From positions 1 through 22,149 of IMG/VR virus record IMGVR_UViG_3300045993_000141: DNA of 22,149 nt; one strand, 5' to 3'. Source of the stretch: a virus. The notes under the pieces were generated by a model. That model saw nothing but the letters and a program-made list of their open reading frames with translations. It was not told the origin of the DNA and searched no databases. The position numbers and the translations under genes are program-made. Below, in pieces: positions 8,400 through 22,149 of the stretch; position 1 is the first letter of the stretch, and the number at the start of each line of letters is the position of its first letter.

Positions 8400-10559
8400 T
8401 TATTTCGAATAGTTGATGTCGACTTTCCCGTCAGAGTTCAACGGGATCGACCCACACCAGTCAGGCGGGGTCTTCATCCAGTTAGTCATGAACTGAAAGC
8501 ACTTTTGAGCTTCTATTATTTTTATAACACAACAGAATTCATCATGTGTAGTCATGACCACCCGGTACTTGCGGCTGACTTGCAGCATCTGCCACATGAC
8601 GATGATCCGGGCCAGGGCCTGAACGATGTTTTCATTCAGCAGGCCGGAATAAATCTTCTTGCGCATATCGCCGCTCTGGTACGTCCACTCATCCCAGCCC
8701 TTGTCTCCTGTCTGCTTCTTCAGATCAGGATATTTCAGGGCCATGCCGTTGGGCAGCCAGATGGTGTTCGCTTCCCAGCTGATCGGGCCGTGAGCGCCTG
8801 TGCGCCCAGCAGCCATGTCTTCGATGATGCGCTCACATTTCTTCCAGCCCATGACTATCTTTGAGTTCTTGAGCCGGTAGGTGTTCACGATCATCTTGCA
8901 CTTCTCGTCGGAGAAATGCACAGGGGGTCCACCGAGGGCGCCTTTTGCCAGCGTGAGCTGGAACTTCGGGGCACCCATCTGGTAGCCTAAACCTAAAACG
9001 CATACCTTTCCAACGAAGCGTTCCAGTTCATCATTGGTAGTTATTTCTCTACCATACACAGCGTCGGCGAAGCGGCAGTACGCATCACGATGGTCTCCAG
9101 TAGCCACGCCCATGGTCTTCTTGTTCCATGAGTCAGCAGCTCTGAAAGCCTCGAGCAGATCATCCTGACCCCAGAGCCAGGCGTTCACACGAGCCTCGAT
9201 TTGACCGGAGTCAACGACGGCAATCATGTGGCCTTTGGGTGCCAGAATCGACAGCCGCAGTTCACCACCGCGCTGCAGATTCTGCATGTTCATCTTGTTC
9301 TGACCACCAAGACGTCCGGTGTGTGCTCGGTAATATGCATACCCGACGGGGAGCGGCATGCCGTTTTTACCTGCTTCAAGAAAGCGTTTTGCACGCGTGA
9401 TATTCGTTGTTGATTTGACAGCAATTCGAACATCAATAAGGCTCTGAAGTCTGGCCTGCTTAGCCGCCATCTTCTGTACGTCGTTCGTGTCATTCAGGTT
9501 GAACCCCCAGTCAGTGACTTTATTGGGTATCTCTAGAAACTCAATATCGTCTTTGGCAAACGCGTAGCTGTACTTCTTGTTCAGCCCCTCCGGGCTCTCA
9601 CGGTCATCCTTGTTCAGCTTCATCCACGCAGGGCTGATCTTTGTAGGCGGCTTGATGCCCTCAACCCTCAGTAGTCCGGCAAACTTCTCGCTGCTGCCGA
9701 TCACACGTTTGATGATCAGCATGTCGCGCTCCTCACCTTCGAGGTCGCGCTCAGCCTGTGTCTTCAGCAGCTCCTTGTAGACCACTGGGTCATACTTGTC
9801 CCCACCGACGTCATAGTCAGCTGGATCTACAGCAGCGTATAGCTTGGCTTTACGCTCGGCGAGCTCGCGCTCCAGTTCTTTCTCGACCCGAGGTATGTCG
9901 ACCCTCAGCACCGGGTCTGTGAACATTCGGGTGATGAGGTTGATGAGGTCCATCTCGTCGGCCGGCATCTTCGGCAGCATCGCCTTGAAGACGCGCAGCA
10001 TCTCGTCAACGTCGTTGGCGCAGTAGATGGCCGCTTCGTTGTATAGCTCTTTGTTCCAGACGAGCACGCCCTTTGTCTTCTCCAGCGTACCCTCTAGTTT
10101 CCCGCCGCCACCATAGTAGCGAGATACCTCATCGAGGCCGCCACCAATATCATTGCTGTGAAGGCCCCTGGCCATCGAAAGGGAATCGTACATATACGAA
10201 GGACGAACATCGTAGTGATGAGACAGAATAAAGCCATCAAACTGAGTGTGGTGGCAAAGACAGCTGTGAGTACGCCAATTAATCTTAGCAAGCTCAGATC
10301 TAATTTTTGCACCAGGTATAACTCGAGTTTTTCCATTTCCTACCTTAATGCCCATCATCTGGGCTTTGAATCTTGGATCTCTGATGTACTCACTGGTAGA
10401 CAACTTTTTCAGCGTGTAGTCCGTGTCGTAATACGTCTCGAAGTCGATCGCCACCAGCCTGTCCCAGTCAGGTGTGTGCTGCGGAATATCTGGCTTACAG
10501 AACTGCGACTCACCGATGCTCTGCTCGAGTTTGTCGATCAGGTTTTTCCACTTACTCAT
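8400..10559 (-). CDS. Family A DNA polymerase with 3'-5' exonuclease domain
   Basis: A 719-aa replicative phage polymerase. The N-terminal DnaQ-like proofreading domain has Exo I VAIDFETY (D39, E41), Exo II HTQFDGF (D109) and Exo III YCANDVDEM (Y180, D184). The polymerase domain has motif A VVDSGQIEARV (D451, E456), the O-helix with R515, K519 and Y527 (ERFVGKVCVLGLGYQMG) and motif C TTHDEF (H673, D674, E675). Motif A reads DSGQIE where most relatives have DYSQIE. No 5'-3' exonuclease domain is present, so primer removal must come from another protein. The ATG overlaps the helicase stop as ATGA. Length is normal for phage enzymes of this type. Confidence 0.96.
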   Translation of the reverse strand: MSKWKNLIDKLEQSIGESQFCKPDIPQHTPDWDRLVAIDFETYYDTDYTLKKLSTSEYIRDPRFKAQMMGIKVGNGKTRVIPGAKIRSELAKINWRTHSCLCHHTQFDGFILSHHYDVRPSYMYDSLSMARGLHSNDIGGGLDEVSRYYGGGGKLEGTLEKTKGVLVWNKELYNEAAIYCANDVDEMLRVFKAMLPKMPADEMDLINLITRMFTDPVLRVDIPRVEKELERELAERKAKLYAAVDPADYDVGGDKYDPVVYKELLKTQAERDLEGEERDMLIIKRVIGSSEKFAGLLRVEGIKPPTKISPAWMKLNKDDRESPEGLNKKYSYAFAKDDIEFLEIPNKVTDWGFNLNDTNDVQKMAAKQARLQSLIDVRIAVKSTTNITRAKRFLEAGKNGMPLPVGYAYYRAHTGRLGGQNKMNMQNLQRGGELRLSILAPKGHMIAVVDSGQIEARVNAWLWGQDDLLEAFRAADSWNKKTMGVATGDHRDAYCRFADAVYGREITTNDELERFVGKVCVLGLGYQMGAPKFQLTLAKGALGGPPVHFSDEKCKMIVNTYRLKNSKIVMGWKKCERIIEDMAAGRTGAHGPISWEANTIWLPNGMALKYPDLKKQTGDKGWDEWTYQSGDMRKKIYSGLLNENIVQALARIIVMWQMLQVSRKYRVVMTTHDEFCCVIKIIEAQKCFQFMTNWMKTPPDWCGSIPLNSDGKVDINYSK

Positions 10560-11959
10560 GCAGGCTCCAATTCTTTCTTCTTACGCTTCGGTGCTGGCGC
10601 AGGAGTCAGTGTCTCGAACAACGAAAGCAGGTTCGTCATCCGGCCATCTTTCTTAGTCATCATGGCGTAGACCTTCTCGTCAATCGTGCCCTTGGCAACC
10701 ACGATGATCGTCTCAGTCTTTTGAGTCTGACCAAGCCGGTGCATGCGCTTGCTGCCCTGCTTGAAGTGTTCGAGATCGTATGTGGGGGATGCCCAGATCG
10801 TCGCCGTCCCCTTGGTCAGCGTGTACCCATGGGCCACAGTCTTCGGGTGTCCGAAGATCACCCGGTACTGCCCCATCTGAAAGCGCTTAACGATCTCATC
10901 ACGCTCCCGGTCTGAAGTGTTGCCGTCAAGGACTGCAAACGTCAGACCACGCTTTTCAGCTTCAGCTACGAGGGCGTCGCGCTGGTGCTTCCACTGGAAG
11001 ATCACCAGACTATGTGAGCGCTGCTCAACGAGATCGAGGCACATCTCATACCGGCCAGTATCGATGACCTTGTAAGCTCCAGTACCGTCATAGACAGCAC
11101 CTGAAGCAATCTGCTGCAGCTTCGTGGCTACGGCAGCCGCATTGACTGCCAGCACGCTCGGCGCAGAGCCCTTGAGCATCAGCATCTGAGTCGTCTCCAT
11201 CTCGAGGTATGCCCGCACCTGCTTGGGTGTCAGGTCGTACTCGATTGAGTAGCGGTGGTTCTCGGGGATGTCAACGCAGTCCTCGAATTTATGTCTGATG
11301 ACGATATCAGATAACAGCCCGAAGACAGCTTCCTCAGAGCCTTCTTTATCGACCCAGCGTATCGCCTGAGCACTGCGCCCCACCTGATTCGGTGTACACA
11401 CAGCGTCCCTGAATTTATAGAAGCTGAACCCAAGGCGCTTACCATCGTCAAGGATGTATGCCTGGTGCCAGATGTCGGTAATTGAGTTGCTGTTCGGCGT
11501 GCCTGTCATGCAGCAGCGATATGTGAAATGTTTCGATATCTTGGAAATCGCTTTCGATCGTTGGCTAGTATGGTGTTTGTAGGCGGTCGACTCGTCAATG
11601 ACCAGCTCGGTAAATCGCTTAAAGAAAGCAGGTTTCTGTTCTGCAAGCCATTTGGCTGCGTCCACATTCGTGACATAAACGTCCACGTCCCGTCCGAAGG
11701 CATCAGCCCGGTTGGCTGCATCGGCCACTGATACTCTGAGGTTGGGCGCGAATTTCGCAATGTCGTTGACCCATACGGACCGTAACAAGGATCGTGGTGC
11801 AAGCACGAGCATTGCTCCACCTCCTGCAGCACGTCGTGCAGCGAATGATCGAATTCGTACGTAAGTCTTCCCTGTGCCAGGGTCTGAGCAATCAAATACG
11901 ATGTTGGTAGTCTCATTGTGCTTAATGGATATGAGTTGATGCTTGAAAGGTTTATTCAT
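10556..11959 (-). CDS. SNF2-family (superfamily 2) helicase/ATPase
   Basis: A 467-aa DNA-dependent ATPase. Walker A is DPGTGKT (26-32), motif Ia LVLAPRSLL, motif II VIDEST (DEST in place of DEAH, 120-125) and motif III MTGTPN (151-156). The second RecA lobe holds SLVIFQWKHQ, VLDGNTSDRERDEIV and motif VI QGSKRMHRLGQTQKTE (401-416), which is the SNF2 signature. A basic tail (RKKKE) ends the protein. Phage SNF2 proteins move along duplex DNA and are proposed to open origins or remodel protein-DNA complexes. It is the only helicase in the window and is coupled by ATGA to the polymerase, so it likely serves replication. Confidence 0.93.
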   Translation of the reverse strand: MNKPFKHQLISIKHNETTNIVFDCSDPGTGKTYVRIRSFAARRAAGGGAMLVLAPRSLLRSVWVNDIAKFAPNLRVSVADAANRADAFGRDVDVYVTNVDAAKWLAEQKPAFFKRFTELVIDESTAYKHHTSQRSKAISKISKHFTYRCCMTGTPNSNSITDIWHQAYILDDGKRLGFSFYKFRDAVCTPNQVGRSAQAIRWVDKEGSEEAVFGLLSDIVIRHKFEDCVDIPENHRYSIEYDLTPKQVRAYLEMETTQMLMLKGSAPSVLAVNAAAVATKLQQIASGAVYDGTGAYKVIDTGRYEMCLDLVEQRSHSLVIFQWKHQRDALVAEAEKRGLTFAVLDGNTSDRERDEIVKRFQMGQYRVIFGHPKTVAHGYTLTKGTATIWASPTYDLEHFKQGSKRMHRLGQTQKTETIIVVAKGTIDEKVYAMMTKKDGRMTNLLSLFETLTPAPAPKRKKKELEPA

Positions 11960-12143
11960 GACCTACGACTCTCAAAATAATTAGTTTCTGCAGAAGGGCT
12001 TGTGGAGATGAAGGACACTTGAGTTGATGTGCGAGTCGAGTTAAGTAATTCGAGTCATGAGAAGTCCAGTTTTCTTCATCCTTGCTGTCGATCCACTGGA
12101 CCTCTCTAATAAACGACCGAACCATAGAATCAAAATGATCCAT
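11952..12143 (-). CDS. Small hypothetical protein (63 aa)
   Basis: A 63-aa helical protein (MDHFDSMVRSFIREVQWIDS, then NYLTRLAHQLKCPSSPQALL). No family is recognised. Its stop overlaps the helicase start by eight bases, so it probably helps bring ribosomes to the helicase. A weak AGAGA precedes the ATG. It is the first gene after the structured gap at 12144-12260. Confidence 0.55.
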   Translation of the reverse strand: MDHFDSMVRSFIREVQWIDSKDEENWTSHDSNYLTRLAHQLKCPSSPQALLQKLIILRVVGHE

Positions 12144-12161: not shown

Positions 12162-12256
12162 TGGTGATCAGTTGGCTCGCATAAAGCAGCGTGCAACAGC
12201 ATGAATCACATCGGAAATTTCAACGGAGCTAAACCCGTTGTTCCAACTGATCACCA
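12162..12256. other. Structured non-coding element closed by a 14-bp perfect inverted repeat
   Basis: Bases 12162-12175 (TGGTGATCAGTTGG) and 12243-12256 (CCAACTGATCACCA) are exact reverse complements. The 67 bases between them hold further stems: CAACGG (12221-12226) with CCGTTG (12235-12240), and CGTGC (12190-12194) with GCATG (12199-12203, one wobble). The result would be a multi-branched RNA of about 95 nucleotides. It fills almost all of a 117-base gap in an operon where most genes overlap. A GCT/AGC pairing and a terminal CCA on the plus strand give a faint tRNA look, but T-loop and anticodon-arm geometry do not fit. The orientation of any RNA is unknown because the arms are symmetric. 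Confidence 0.6.
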
Positions 12257-12260
12257 AGAC

Positions 12261-12986
12261 TTATGCTTTGCGGACACCTACGTCGCAATGGCCGGAGTGC
12301 TCAGGGCCGTAGAGGCACCACTGACAAGAGAACTTGTTTGGGTTCGCTGGCCAGATTGAGCACGATGTAATGTCGATGCCCTTCTTGTGGTAATTTGCTT
12401 TGAACCTCAGCGACTGATCACGCGTGAATGTCTGCGAGGTTGTGTCGCCGGTGTCGAGGTACCAGAGCTGAGCATCTACTGATTCAAGCTCTGGGTATCG
12501 CAGGAAAGTAACGAGGGCATACAGCTGCAGCTGCTGAGCATGTTTGACTTCGTTGCCCCACTTCTTCCCCGTCTTAAAATCTATAACGGTCGCTTGATCT
12601 TTGCTAACACGCACGAGCACGTCCAGTTTGAGGCGCAGCCATGCTGACTTCCATGGCGCGATCTCCCAGCCTTGGTCCATACCCCACTCCCCTTCAAGCT
12701 CAACATCTCCGTATCCGTACAGGACCCTAAGGAGATCAATACGGAGTCCGAAGTGCTTTTCAGCTTCAGGGGCCAAATCATCGTGATCTGATCGTATATA
12801 GAACTCACAATTATTATGAACCCTAGTACCACGATCGTTTGCGTGCTCAGTTTGGCCAGGTCGAAGCACACGTTCTGGTTCAGTGATCTTTTCCAGATGC
12901 TTGAGCCAGAAATATTTCTTACACTTTTCAAAATCCTGTAGCTTACTAAAGCTCCATGAAACTGATTTTCTAAGTTCATTACTCAT
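12261..12986 (-). CDS. RecB/Cas4-type PD-(D/E)XK nuclease with a likely Fe-S cluster
   Basis: A 241-aa nuclease. The RecB-family core is visible as GTRVH (H57), LKLDVLV (D122), VIDFKTGKKW (D136, K138) and QQLQLYA (Q152, Y156). C22 in the first helix (FEKCKKYFWLKHL) and C221, C224 and C234 at the end (CQWCLYGPEHSGHC) give the one-plus-three cysteine pattern that holds a 4Fe-4S cluster in Cas4 and AddB nucleases. It likely resects DNA ends or trims recombination intermediates for the phage. It starts by ATGA overlap with the HNH gene at 12983. The nuclease family is secure; the metal cluster is inferred from cysteine spacing. Confidence 0.88.
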   Translation of the reverse strand: MSNELRKSVSWSFSKLQDFEKCKKYFWLKHLEKITEPERVLRPGQTEHANDRGTRVHNNCEFYIRSDHDDLAPEAEKHFGLRIDLLRVLYGYGDVELEGEWGMDQGWEIAPWKSAWLRLKLDVLVRVSKDQATVIDFKTGKKWGNEVKHAQQLQLYALVTFLRYPELESVDAQLWYLDTGDTTSQTFTRDQSLRFKANYHKKGIDITSCSIWPANPNKFSCQWCLYGPEHSGHCDVGVRKA

Positions 12987-13462
12987 CTCGCATAAATTCC
13001 ATGAAATTGATGTTTAGCCGTCAAATAAGCAGCATGTGCTTCTTCTACAGTAGGGAAGGTACCTAGTAAGTGAACGGTCTTGTCCACTGTTATCTTTGCG
13101 CGATATTTAGGTCCATGCGGGAAAGTGCCGCTAAATGAAAATCTAATTTTTTGGTTCTGCAAGTTTTGGGAATGCGTCACGTCTCGTAAATTTGCATACT
13201 TGTTGTTTGTTTTGTCGCCATCTTTATGGTCTATATATTTTTGCGGCCAACTACCTGTCTGATATAGCCAAGCTAAACGATGCAATAAATAAAGTTTTCT
13301 ATCTATTTGTATAGATTGGTACCCACTCTGTCCTGTCGCGCCAGCTTTCTGGCCTGCTCGTATCCGGTTACTCGTACTTACCTTCCAAGTAAACACACCA
13401 GTCTCAGGGTTGTAATCTAAGAGTTCTCTAAGCCTGCTCTGAGTTAGAATTGGTTTGCTCAT
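12983..13462 (-). CDS. HNH homing endonuclease with C-terminal AP2 DNA-binding domain
   Basis: A 159-aa protein. An N-terminal module (LRELLDYNPETGVFTWKV) is followed by the HNH core: H61 in LLHRLAW, IDHKDGDKTNNKYANLRDV (D78, H79, N86, N91) and SQNLQNQK. Residues about 118-154 match an AP2-type DNA-binding domain (YRAKITVDKTVHLLGTFPTV, then EEAHAAYLTAK). Such genes spread by cutting alleles that lack them. It lies between the MoxR/VWA block and the RecB/Cas4-type nuclease, and its TGA forms an ATGA overlap with that nuclease's ATG. Codon and base use is more AT-rich than in neighbouring genes, consistent with recent arrival. Confidence 0.92.
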   Translation of the reverse strand: MSKPILTQSRLRELLDYNPETGVFTWKVSTSNRIRAGQKAGATGQSGYQSIQIDRKLYLLHRLAWLYQTGSWPQKYIDHKDGDKTNNKYANLRDVTHSQNLQNQKIRFSFSGTFPHGPKYRAKITVDKTVHLLGTFPTVEEAHAAYLTAKHQFHGIYAR

Positions 13463-13500
13463 GACGCTTGTCCTTCATTGACAAAGTTGTTTGAAGTGGC

Positions 13501-13526
13501 CCTCGGGAGACGGTAATCTTCCGAGG
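13501..13526. other. 10-bp hairpin between the 13552-14193 gene and the HNH gene
   Basis: CCTCGGGAGA (13501-13510) pairs with TCTTCCGAGG (13517-13526) around a 6-base loop, with one G-U or mismatch depending on strand. It follows the stop of the upstream gene by about 25 bases and has no U tract. It may stabilise or process the upstream message, or be partly a terminator. Confidence 0.5.
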
Positions 13527-13543
13527 TCTGCGCCTCATTCTAA

Positions 13544-13553
13544 CTTAGATATT
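13544..13553. repeat. TTAGATAT motif upstream of the HNH-AP2 gene
   Basis: CTTAGATATT overlaps the TAA stop region of the 13552-14193 gene and lies in the gap upstream of the HNH-AP2 gene. It matches the core of the motif at 6701-6721 and 8373-8383. TTAGAAT on the minus strand follows within a few bases here and also appears in the 8341-8399 gap, so the two HNH upstream regions share more than the core. Confidence 0.45.
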
Positions 13554-21658: not shown

Positions 21659-21882
21659 TTATAAGTCCCCATTTTCAGAATGATGCCCCTGATCGTCTCT
21701 GAGGCTACGCTGTATTCACGGCCAAGCTGACGATACGACTTACCCGCTGCACGTTCTTCGCGTATCTTCATACATATCTCATCGGTGAACTTCCTTGTGA
21801 ACCCGCGTGGCTTGGGTGGTGGCTGTGGGACGAAATTAGGTGTAGGCCAAGCTACGCCCGGAGCTAAGACGGTGCGGATCAT
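21655..21882 (-). CDS. Small helix-turn-helix protein (75 aa)
   Basis: A 75-aa protein. A Pro-rich N-terminus (PTPNFVPQPPPKPRG) is followed by a homeodomain-like helix-turn-helix: FTDEICMKIREERAAGKSYR, then QLGREYSVASETIRGIIL. This matches the short HTH unit of transposase or resolvase type and the DNA-binding repeats beside some homing endonucleases. It is probably a regulator or a fragment of a mobile-element protein. ATGA overlaps link it to both neighbours. Confidence 0.75.
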   Translation of the reverse strand: MIRTVLAPGVAWPTPNFVPQPPPKPRGFTRKFTDEICMKIREERAAGKSYRQLGREYSVASETIRGIILKMGTYK

Positions 21883-22149
21883 GATTCTTCGTCGCCGTAG
21901 CCGTTGCCGTCGCCGTTGCCGTTGCCGTCGCCGTCGCCGTCGCCGTAGCCGTTGCCGTAGCCGTAGCCGTAGCCGTCGCTGTAGCCGTTGCCGTCGCCGT
22001 TGCCGTTGCCGTCGCCGTCGCCGTCGCCGTCGCCGTAGCCGTAGCCGTTGCCGTAGCCGTAGCCGTTGCCGTCGCCGTCGCCGTAGCCGTTGCCGTCGCC
22101 GTAGCCGTAGCCGTAGCCGTTGCCGTCGCCGTAGCCGTTGCCGTAGCCG
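21879..22149 (-). CDS. C-terminal part of a Gly-X repeat protein (5' end outside the window)
   Basis: About 89 codons are open to the window edge. In the frame that ends with an ATGA overlap at 21879-21882, almost every other residue is Gly and the alternate residue is Asp, Asn or Tyr (for example GYGDGYGNGDG), followed by GYGDEES and stop. One Gly is replaced by Ser near 21978. Such Gly-X arrays are known in phage proteins and may form extended or collagen-like rods. The choice of frame rests on the stop/start junction and on the fact that His codons never appear at the variable site. An Ala-Thr frame is also open and would make most variation silent. Confidence 0.55.
   Translation of the reverse strand, partial: GYGNGYGDGNGYGYGYGDGNGYGDGDGNGYGYGNGYGYGDGDGDGDGNGNGDGNGYSDGYGYGYGNGYGDGDGDGNGNGDGNGYGDEES
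21894..22149. repeat. Hexanucleotide repeat array CCGTNG, about 42 units
   Basis: From about 21894 to the window end the sequence is a tandem array of CCGTNG, where N is C, T or A and never G. Within it a block of about 50 bases beginning at 21897 recurs at 21981, 14 units further on, so the array has grown by internal duplication as well as by unit changes. One unit reads CTGTAG (21979-21984). The array runs off the window and probably stopped the assembly, so its true length is unknown. Confidence 0.95.

Follow-up and report, generated by a model that had tools for sequence, protein, structure and literature searches.

In the 22,149-nt stretch of viral DNA that we analyzed (the window), a perfect 14-bp inverted repeat closes a hairpin of about 95 bases between the gene of a RecB-like nuclease and a replication block that encodes a 63-aa ORF (ORF63), a SNF2-type helicase and a family A DNA polymerase (Table 1). 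The arms of this hairpin are real and unlikely to have arisen by chance. We read the hairpin, tentatively and with slightly less than even confidence, as a cis-acting structured 5' leader of the minus-strand polycistronic mRNA of ORF63, helicase and polymerase. The same leader position is occupied in 16 relatives by a covarying RNA, here called RNA-A.

Table 1. Coordinates of the hairpin and its neighboring genes in the window, and of RNA-A in relatives.
Feature	Position	Strand	Match or score
5' arm of the 14-bp closing stem, TGGTGATCAGTTGG (minus-strand reading)	12243..12256	-	
3' arm of the 14-bp closing stem, CCAACTGATCACCA	12162..12175	-	
67-nt interior, structure not above chance	12176..12242	-	z -0.04
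Inner 7-bp hairpin CAACGGG-TTTAGC-TCCGTTG, only solid inner stem	12221..12240	-	
RecB-like nuclease, PD-(D/E)XK (RecB/Cas4-like), upstream	12261..12986	-	PF12705, 6.9e-16
63-aa ORF (ORF63), stop overlaps helicase start	11952..12143	-	
SNF2-type helicase, downstream	10556..11959	-	phrog_62
Family A DNA polymerase, further downstream	8400..10559	-	
RNA-A	L009:2460-2625, L010:1937-2110, L014:2826-2990, L021:2826-2985, 12 further loci		

No other repeat as long occurs in the window, and among 300 dinucleotide-shuffled versions of the whole window only 2 contained a 14-bp repeat with its arms at such a distance. The original prediction, which had called such a match unlikely by chance, is borne out on this point. 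When imperfect stems were permitted in the scan, the window was only marginal (p 0.04). The 121-nt fold is more stable than its shuffles on both strands (z -3.9 on the plus strand and z -3.4 on the minus strand). Because the interior alone folds about as well as its own shuffles (z -0.04 on the minus strand, z -1.04 on the plus strand), the stability of the hairpin is credited to the closing stem, and only that stem is unusual. The two or more further stems proposed originally come down to one ordinary 7-bp hairpin, solid on paper, the remaining pairing being weak.

The annotated genes around the hairpin lie on the minus strand, so that any transcript of it would be a minus-strand RNA. The repeat itself is symmetric, as the original prediction noted in calling the orientation undecidable, but the gene context does favor one strand. 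The hairpin starts 4 nt past the RecB stop, ends 18 nt ahead of the ATG of ORF63 and takes up most of the 117-nt non-coding stretch between these two genes. Of the gap between RecB and helicase, these 117 nt are non-coding, and the rest contains the plausible ORF63. Searches with ORF63 found no relatives in viral contigs and one non-significant match in phages.

Nor is the RecB-helicase gap the only sizeable one in the region, because a second structured element lies in an 89-nt gap (13463-13551) ahead of an HNH gene. This element, RNA-B, is the leader of the HNH gene (window 13438-13549, minus strand) and includes the HNH start codon within its structure. It spans 112 nt and encloses a branched interior between 13-nt closing arms, which on the minus strand contain one non-pair. 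RNA-B is conserved in L011, L083/L059, L029, L023 and L010, and apparently travels together with the HNH gene. Kinship between the hairpin and RNA-B was considered and rejected, since the two show no similarity on reading.

Two further features of the window were recorded. About 47 nt within positions 1183-1233 are identical to other phage records, resemble the 3' half of a tRNA (which we take to be probably tRNA-Val(GAC)) and end in GGTTCGAGTCCAATCGCGCCTACCA. Directly beside it (1355-2341) lie the genes of a tyrosine integrase (PF00589, 3.8e-29) and of an excisionase-like protein. In this setting the tRNA-like stretch is a likely attP, so the phage is probably temperate. At positions 21842-22149 there is a tandem repeat array with 12-18-nt steps that runs past the window end, and a similar array occurs at L004:6472-6697.

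We compared the hairpin with known classes of elements. None of the Rfam 15 covariance models reached its gathering threshold, and the best sub-threshold match scored 10.8 bits (E 1.8). ARAGORN called no tRNA or tmRNA at the hairpin; a tRNA-like interior, in which no T-loop could be read either, was therefore rejected. The GC-rich stem and T-run of an intrinsic terminator were not found at the site, whose flanks (AGACTTATGC and CCCTATTCAG) are free of T-runs. The flanks carry no target-site duplication of the kind expected of a MITE with terminal inverted repeats, and the window holds no second copy of either arm, the nearest matches differing at 3 or more positions. An exact-pattern scan for both arms in viral contigs and a BLASTN search of the hairpin region against phage records returned no match. 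Membership in RNA-A was defined as a profile match with the long-range GTGCGT/ACGCAC helix and the 3' H-type pseudoknot; nhmmer --max found no RNA-A match in the window, and the motif is absent on reading. With 14 bp, the closing stem does have the length of at least about one helical turn that marks RNase III sites between co-transcribed genes, co-transcription here being inferred from gene order.

Searches of viral contigs and genomes with the helicase, nuclease and polymerase yielded about 90 distinct RecB loci, each together with the junction that follows it. The junction is highly variable among these loci, and some hold unrelated small ORFs. RecB and helicase abut or overlap in many phages (gap of -4 nt in L012, 2 nt in L017/L089), and only 19 nt separate them in L076/L092/L186. 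The proteins of L012 and L017 are 73-75% identical to those of the window, yet both phages lack the gap. Because RecB and helicase abut in so many relatives, the gap and the hairpin are dispensable and neither is essential. The helicase matches at L078:3510-4373 and L079:3510-4373 are restricted to residues 29-312 and fall within a 748-residue open frame, which is possibly an intein or a fusion.

RNA-A, a strongly covarying, pseudoknotted motif of 140-170 nt, begins at most about 25 nt past the RecB stop in 16 distinct relatives (L004, L005, L009, L010, L013, L014, L018, L020, L021, L022, L030, L059, L073, L094, L097 and L139). Its pairing was assessed on a MAFFT sequence alignment for three mutually pseudoknotted helices, namely the long-range helix GTGCGT/ACGCAC plus both helices of the 3' H-type pseudoknot. 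Pairing is kept in 99.2% of 256 cells (88.2% in shuffles), two-sided changes are seen in 12 of the 16 pairs (3.8 in shuffles), and the covariation score is 0.389 compared with 0.171 in shuffles. Sliding the partner by 1-3 columns lowers pairing to 20-43%, a comparison that favors the unslid helices because they were chosen by eye on the same sequences. Loop-loop pairing seems to join a 5' hairpin to a later one, and the arms of another hairpin change freely. Assessed as a group rather than column by column, these loop-loop and free-arm helices show higher complementarity within than between sequences (permutation p 0.0017). Rfam 15 gave no match in any RNA-A locus tested, and literature searches for such an RNA found nothing relevant. 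RNA-A is apparently an undescribed RNA. Matches to its 3' motif in L051, L053, L054, L055, L056, L058, L063 and L065 fell in unrelated DNA and were discarded. In L004 (3843-3990), RNA-A is followed by a 12-bp hairpin and then by a sequence that resembles a tRNA and has a good T-arm (GCAGGTTCGAGCCCTGC), on which ARAGORN makes no call.

Long stems like that of the window recur in relatives. The closest relative found, L009 (helicase 84% identical), has at the same junction a 16-bp perfect stem, or 19 bp with one G-U pair (span 105-111 nt, z -5.6). L139 has there a pair of 21-nt arms that are 90% complementary, mismatch included (z -4.8). The longer RecB-helicase gap of L129 contains two stems of 22 bp and 16 bp, and L212 carries a 19-bp stem in an intergenic region of the replication module, upstream of RecB. 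Spans of these hairpins, including that of the window, range from 95 to 123 nt, and the distance to the next ATG, read from the sequence, is 18 nt in the window, 17 nt in L139 and 20 nt for the second hairpin of L129. By eye, the interiors in L009, L139, L129 and L212 have no common motif. L009 and L139 each carry both elements, RNA-A followed immediately by the long-stem hairpin. A 35-nt direct repeat of the RNA-A 3' end (L009:2590-2624 and 2733-2767, 94% identical), which terminates in a T-run, flanks the hairpin of L009.

Such stems are more frequent than expected. In about 0.8 Mb of relatives we counted 10 stems of at least 14 bp with spans of 60-160 nt, against about 2 per shuffle, and three stems of at least 19 bp, against none in ten shuffles. 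Three of nine long stems lie in the RecB-helicase gap, which makes up 5% of the bases (p 0.011), a count that includes the window; 2 of 8 remain when it is left out. In a scan of 54 gaps that allowed imperfect stems, L009 and L139 stood out (p about 0.005). Wobble-pair bias was dropped as evidence for a sense strand, as allowing wobble both ways gave 13 stems each. The original prediction had looked to relatives for arms that change together and a gap that persists, and the outcome is mixed: the gap is gone in L012 and L017, and the arms in L009 and L139 are wholly unlike those of the window yet still pair. No alignment of the arms is possible between loci, so that strictly speaking the changes do not count as compensatory. 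What the long stems share is geometry rather than the compensatory evolution of one element, and they may have arisen independently.

The leader reading proposes the following. The 14-bp stem closes a hairpin that separates the RecB-like gene from the genes of ORF63, helicase and polymerase and, with the ATG 18 nt past it, would leave the start region single-stranded just outside. Transcribed on the minus strand, the stem would set a site for RNase III-type processing, cap the downstream mRNA against decay, or both, and the downstream replication genes would be expressed apart from RecB. Double-strandedness is taken as the functional property because only the stem recurs, not its sequence or interior. 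The rarity of the perfect repeat, the recurrent long stems, their geometry, their excess and the presence of RNA-A at the junction all argue for a leader, a function that these comparisons suggest. The interior, no more structured than chance, the arms that resist alignment between loci, the marginal result with imperfect stems and the absence of the hairpin in relatives count against it, and 14 bp is a short stem for RNase III to cut efficiently. The original prediction of a non-chance structured element stands, and among the four candidate roles it listed (small RNA, RNase III site, origin, cruciform) the best fit is a hairpin that would serve processing or stability. The position 18 nt before an ATG and the RNA-A at the junction of relatives point to a minus-strand role at the RNA level. 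One may go further and suppose that the junction is a dedicated RNA locus with interchangeable leaders, either RNA-A or free-sequence hairpins of about 100 nt, and that the window hairpin replaced RNA-A in the same job of controlling the downstream replication genes; we regard this extension as rather unlikely.

The main rival to the leader is a functionless product of rearrangement, in which template switching or imperfect indels create repeats at an accessory-gene hot spot and the repeats persist since the gap is free of constraint. The unrelated arms, lengths and interiors of the different loci speak for it, as do the variability of the junction with its unrelated small ORFs, the missing gap in relatives, and the L009 hairpin lying between two copies of the RNA-A 3' end. 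Similar spans, intergenic placement and a distance of 17-20 nt to an ATG in three cases speak against it, and perfect stems would decay without selection or a recent origin; we consider it unlikely overall. A discrete phage small RNA of about 95 nt, cut at the base of the stem, replacing RNA-A and acting in trans or as a scaffold, is doubtful to a similar degree, if slightly more so. Excised phage RNAs have a closed-stem shape and size like those of the hairpin, which sits, 4 nt past the RecB stop, at the site of RNA-A in 16 relatives. An interior without selected structure, the lack of any sequence or profile similarity to RNA-A, and the want of a common motif in the interiors of relatives all weigh against a discrete RNA.

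Explanations at the DNA level fare less well. A cruciform, paired operator sites or part of a replication origin would suit a symmetric perfect repeat with the palindrome TGATCA in each arm, located within the replication block, but no close copies of the arms occur in the window, the GC skew has no clear turn exactly at the hairpin, and in relatives covariation preserves the pairing of an RNA at this junction. We consider a DNA element improbable. The position before a start codon, the orientation and RNA-A at the same spot are the reasons for which a transcribed leader is favored over it. The 14-bp inverted ends around 67 bp, with a presence that varies among relatives, might also be the termini of a small mobile element. 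This is very improbable, given that the flanks show no target-site duplication and the window no second copy, and given that the arms vary from member to member, unlike the ends of a mobile-element family, which are conserved.

Taken alone, the hairpin is a modest, plausible leader or processing element, and its context carries more weight, since in relatives this junction beside the replication helicase holds the strongly covarying RNA-A, for which Rfam 15 has no family. RNA-A, not detected in the window, is the less ordinary and more novel result. Should the junction prove to be a control point at the RNA level, it would offer a compact and testable system for the tuning of phage replication genes and for the swapping of structured leaders.

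Among known systems, T7-type RNase III hairpins lie between co-transcribed genes, have arms that differ between sites and stand near the next start codon. The window hairpin resembles them in being intergenic, in arms that vary by site and in the close next start, but T7-type hairpins are shorter and have an internal bulge, in contrast to its 14-bp stem and 67-nt interior. The 5'-UTR stabilizing stem-loop of the ompA type places a stem directly upstream of the ribosome-binding region; unlike it, the window hairpin lies inside a polycistronic operon, where a 5' end would need prior processing. With RNA-A it shares the junction, both elements immediately following the RecB stop and preceding the next gene, but RNA-A is longer and has several hairpins, long-range loop pairing, an H-type pseudoknot and conserved sequence. 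RNA-B is similar in its closing arms (13 nt against 14 bp), its span and its strand, and differs in that, across phages, its interior is conserved together with the HNH gene and in that its structure contains the start codon. The hairpin belongs to a known sort, the intergenic mRNA hairpins of phages.
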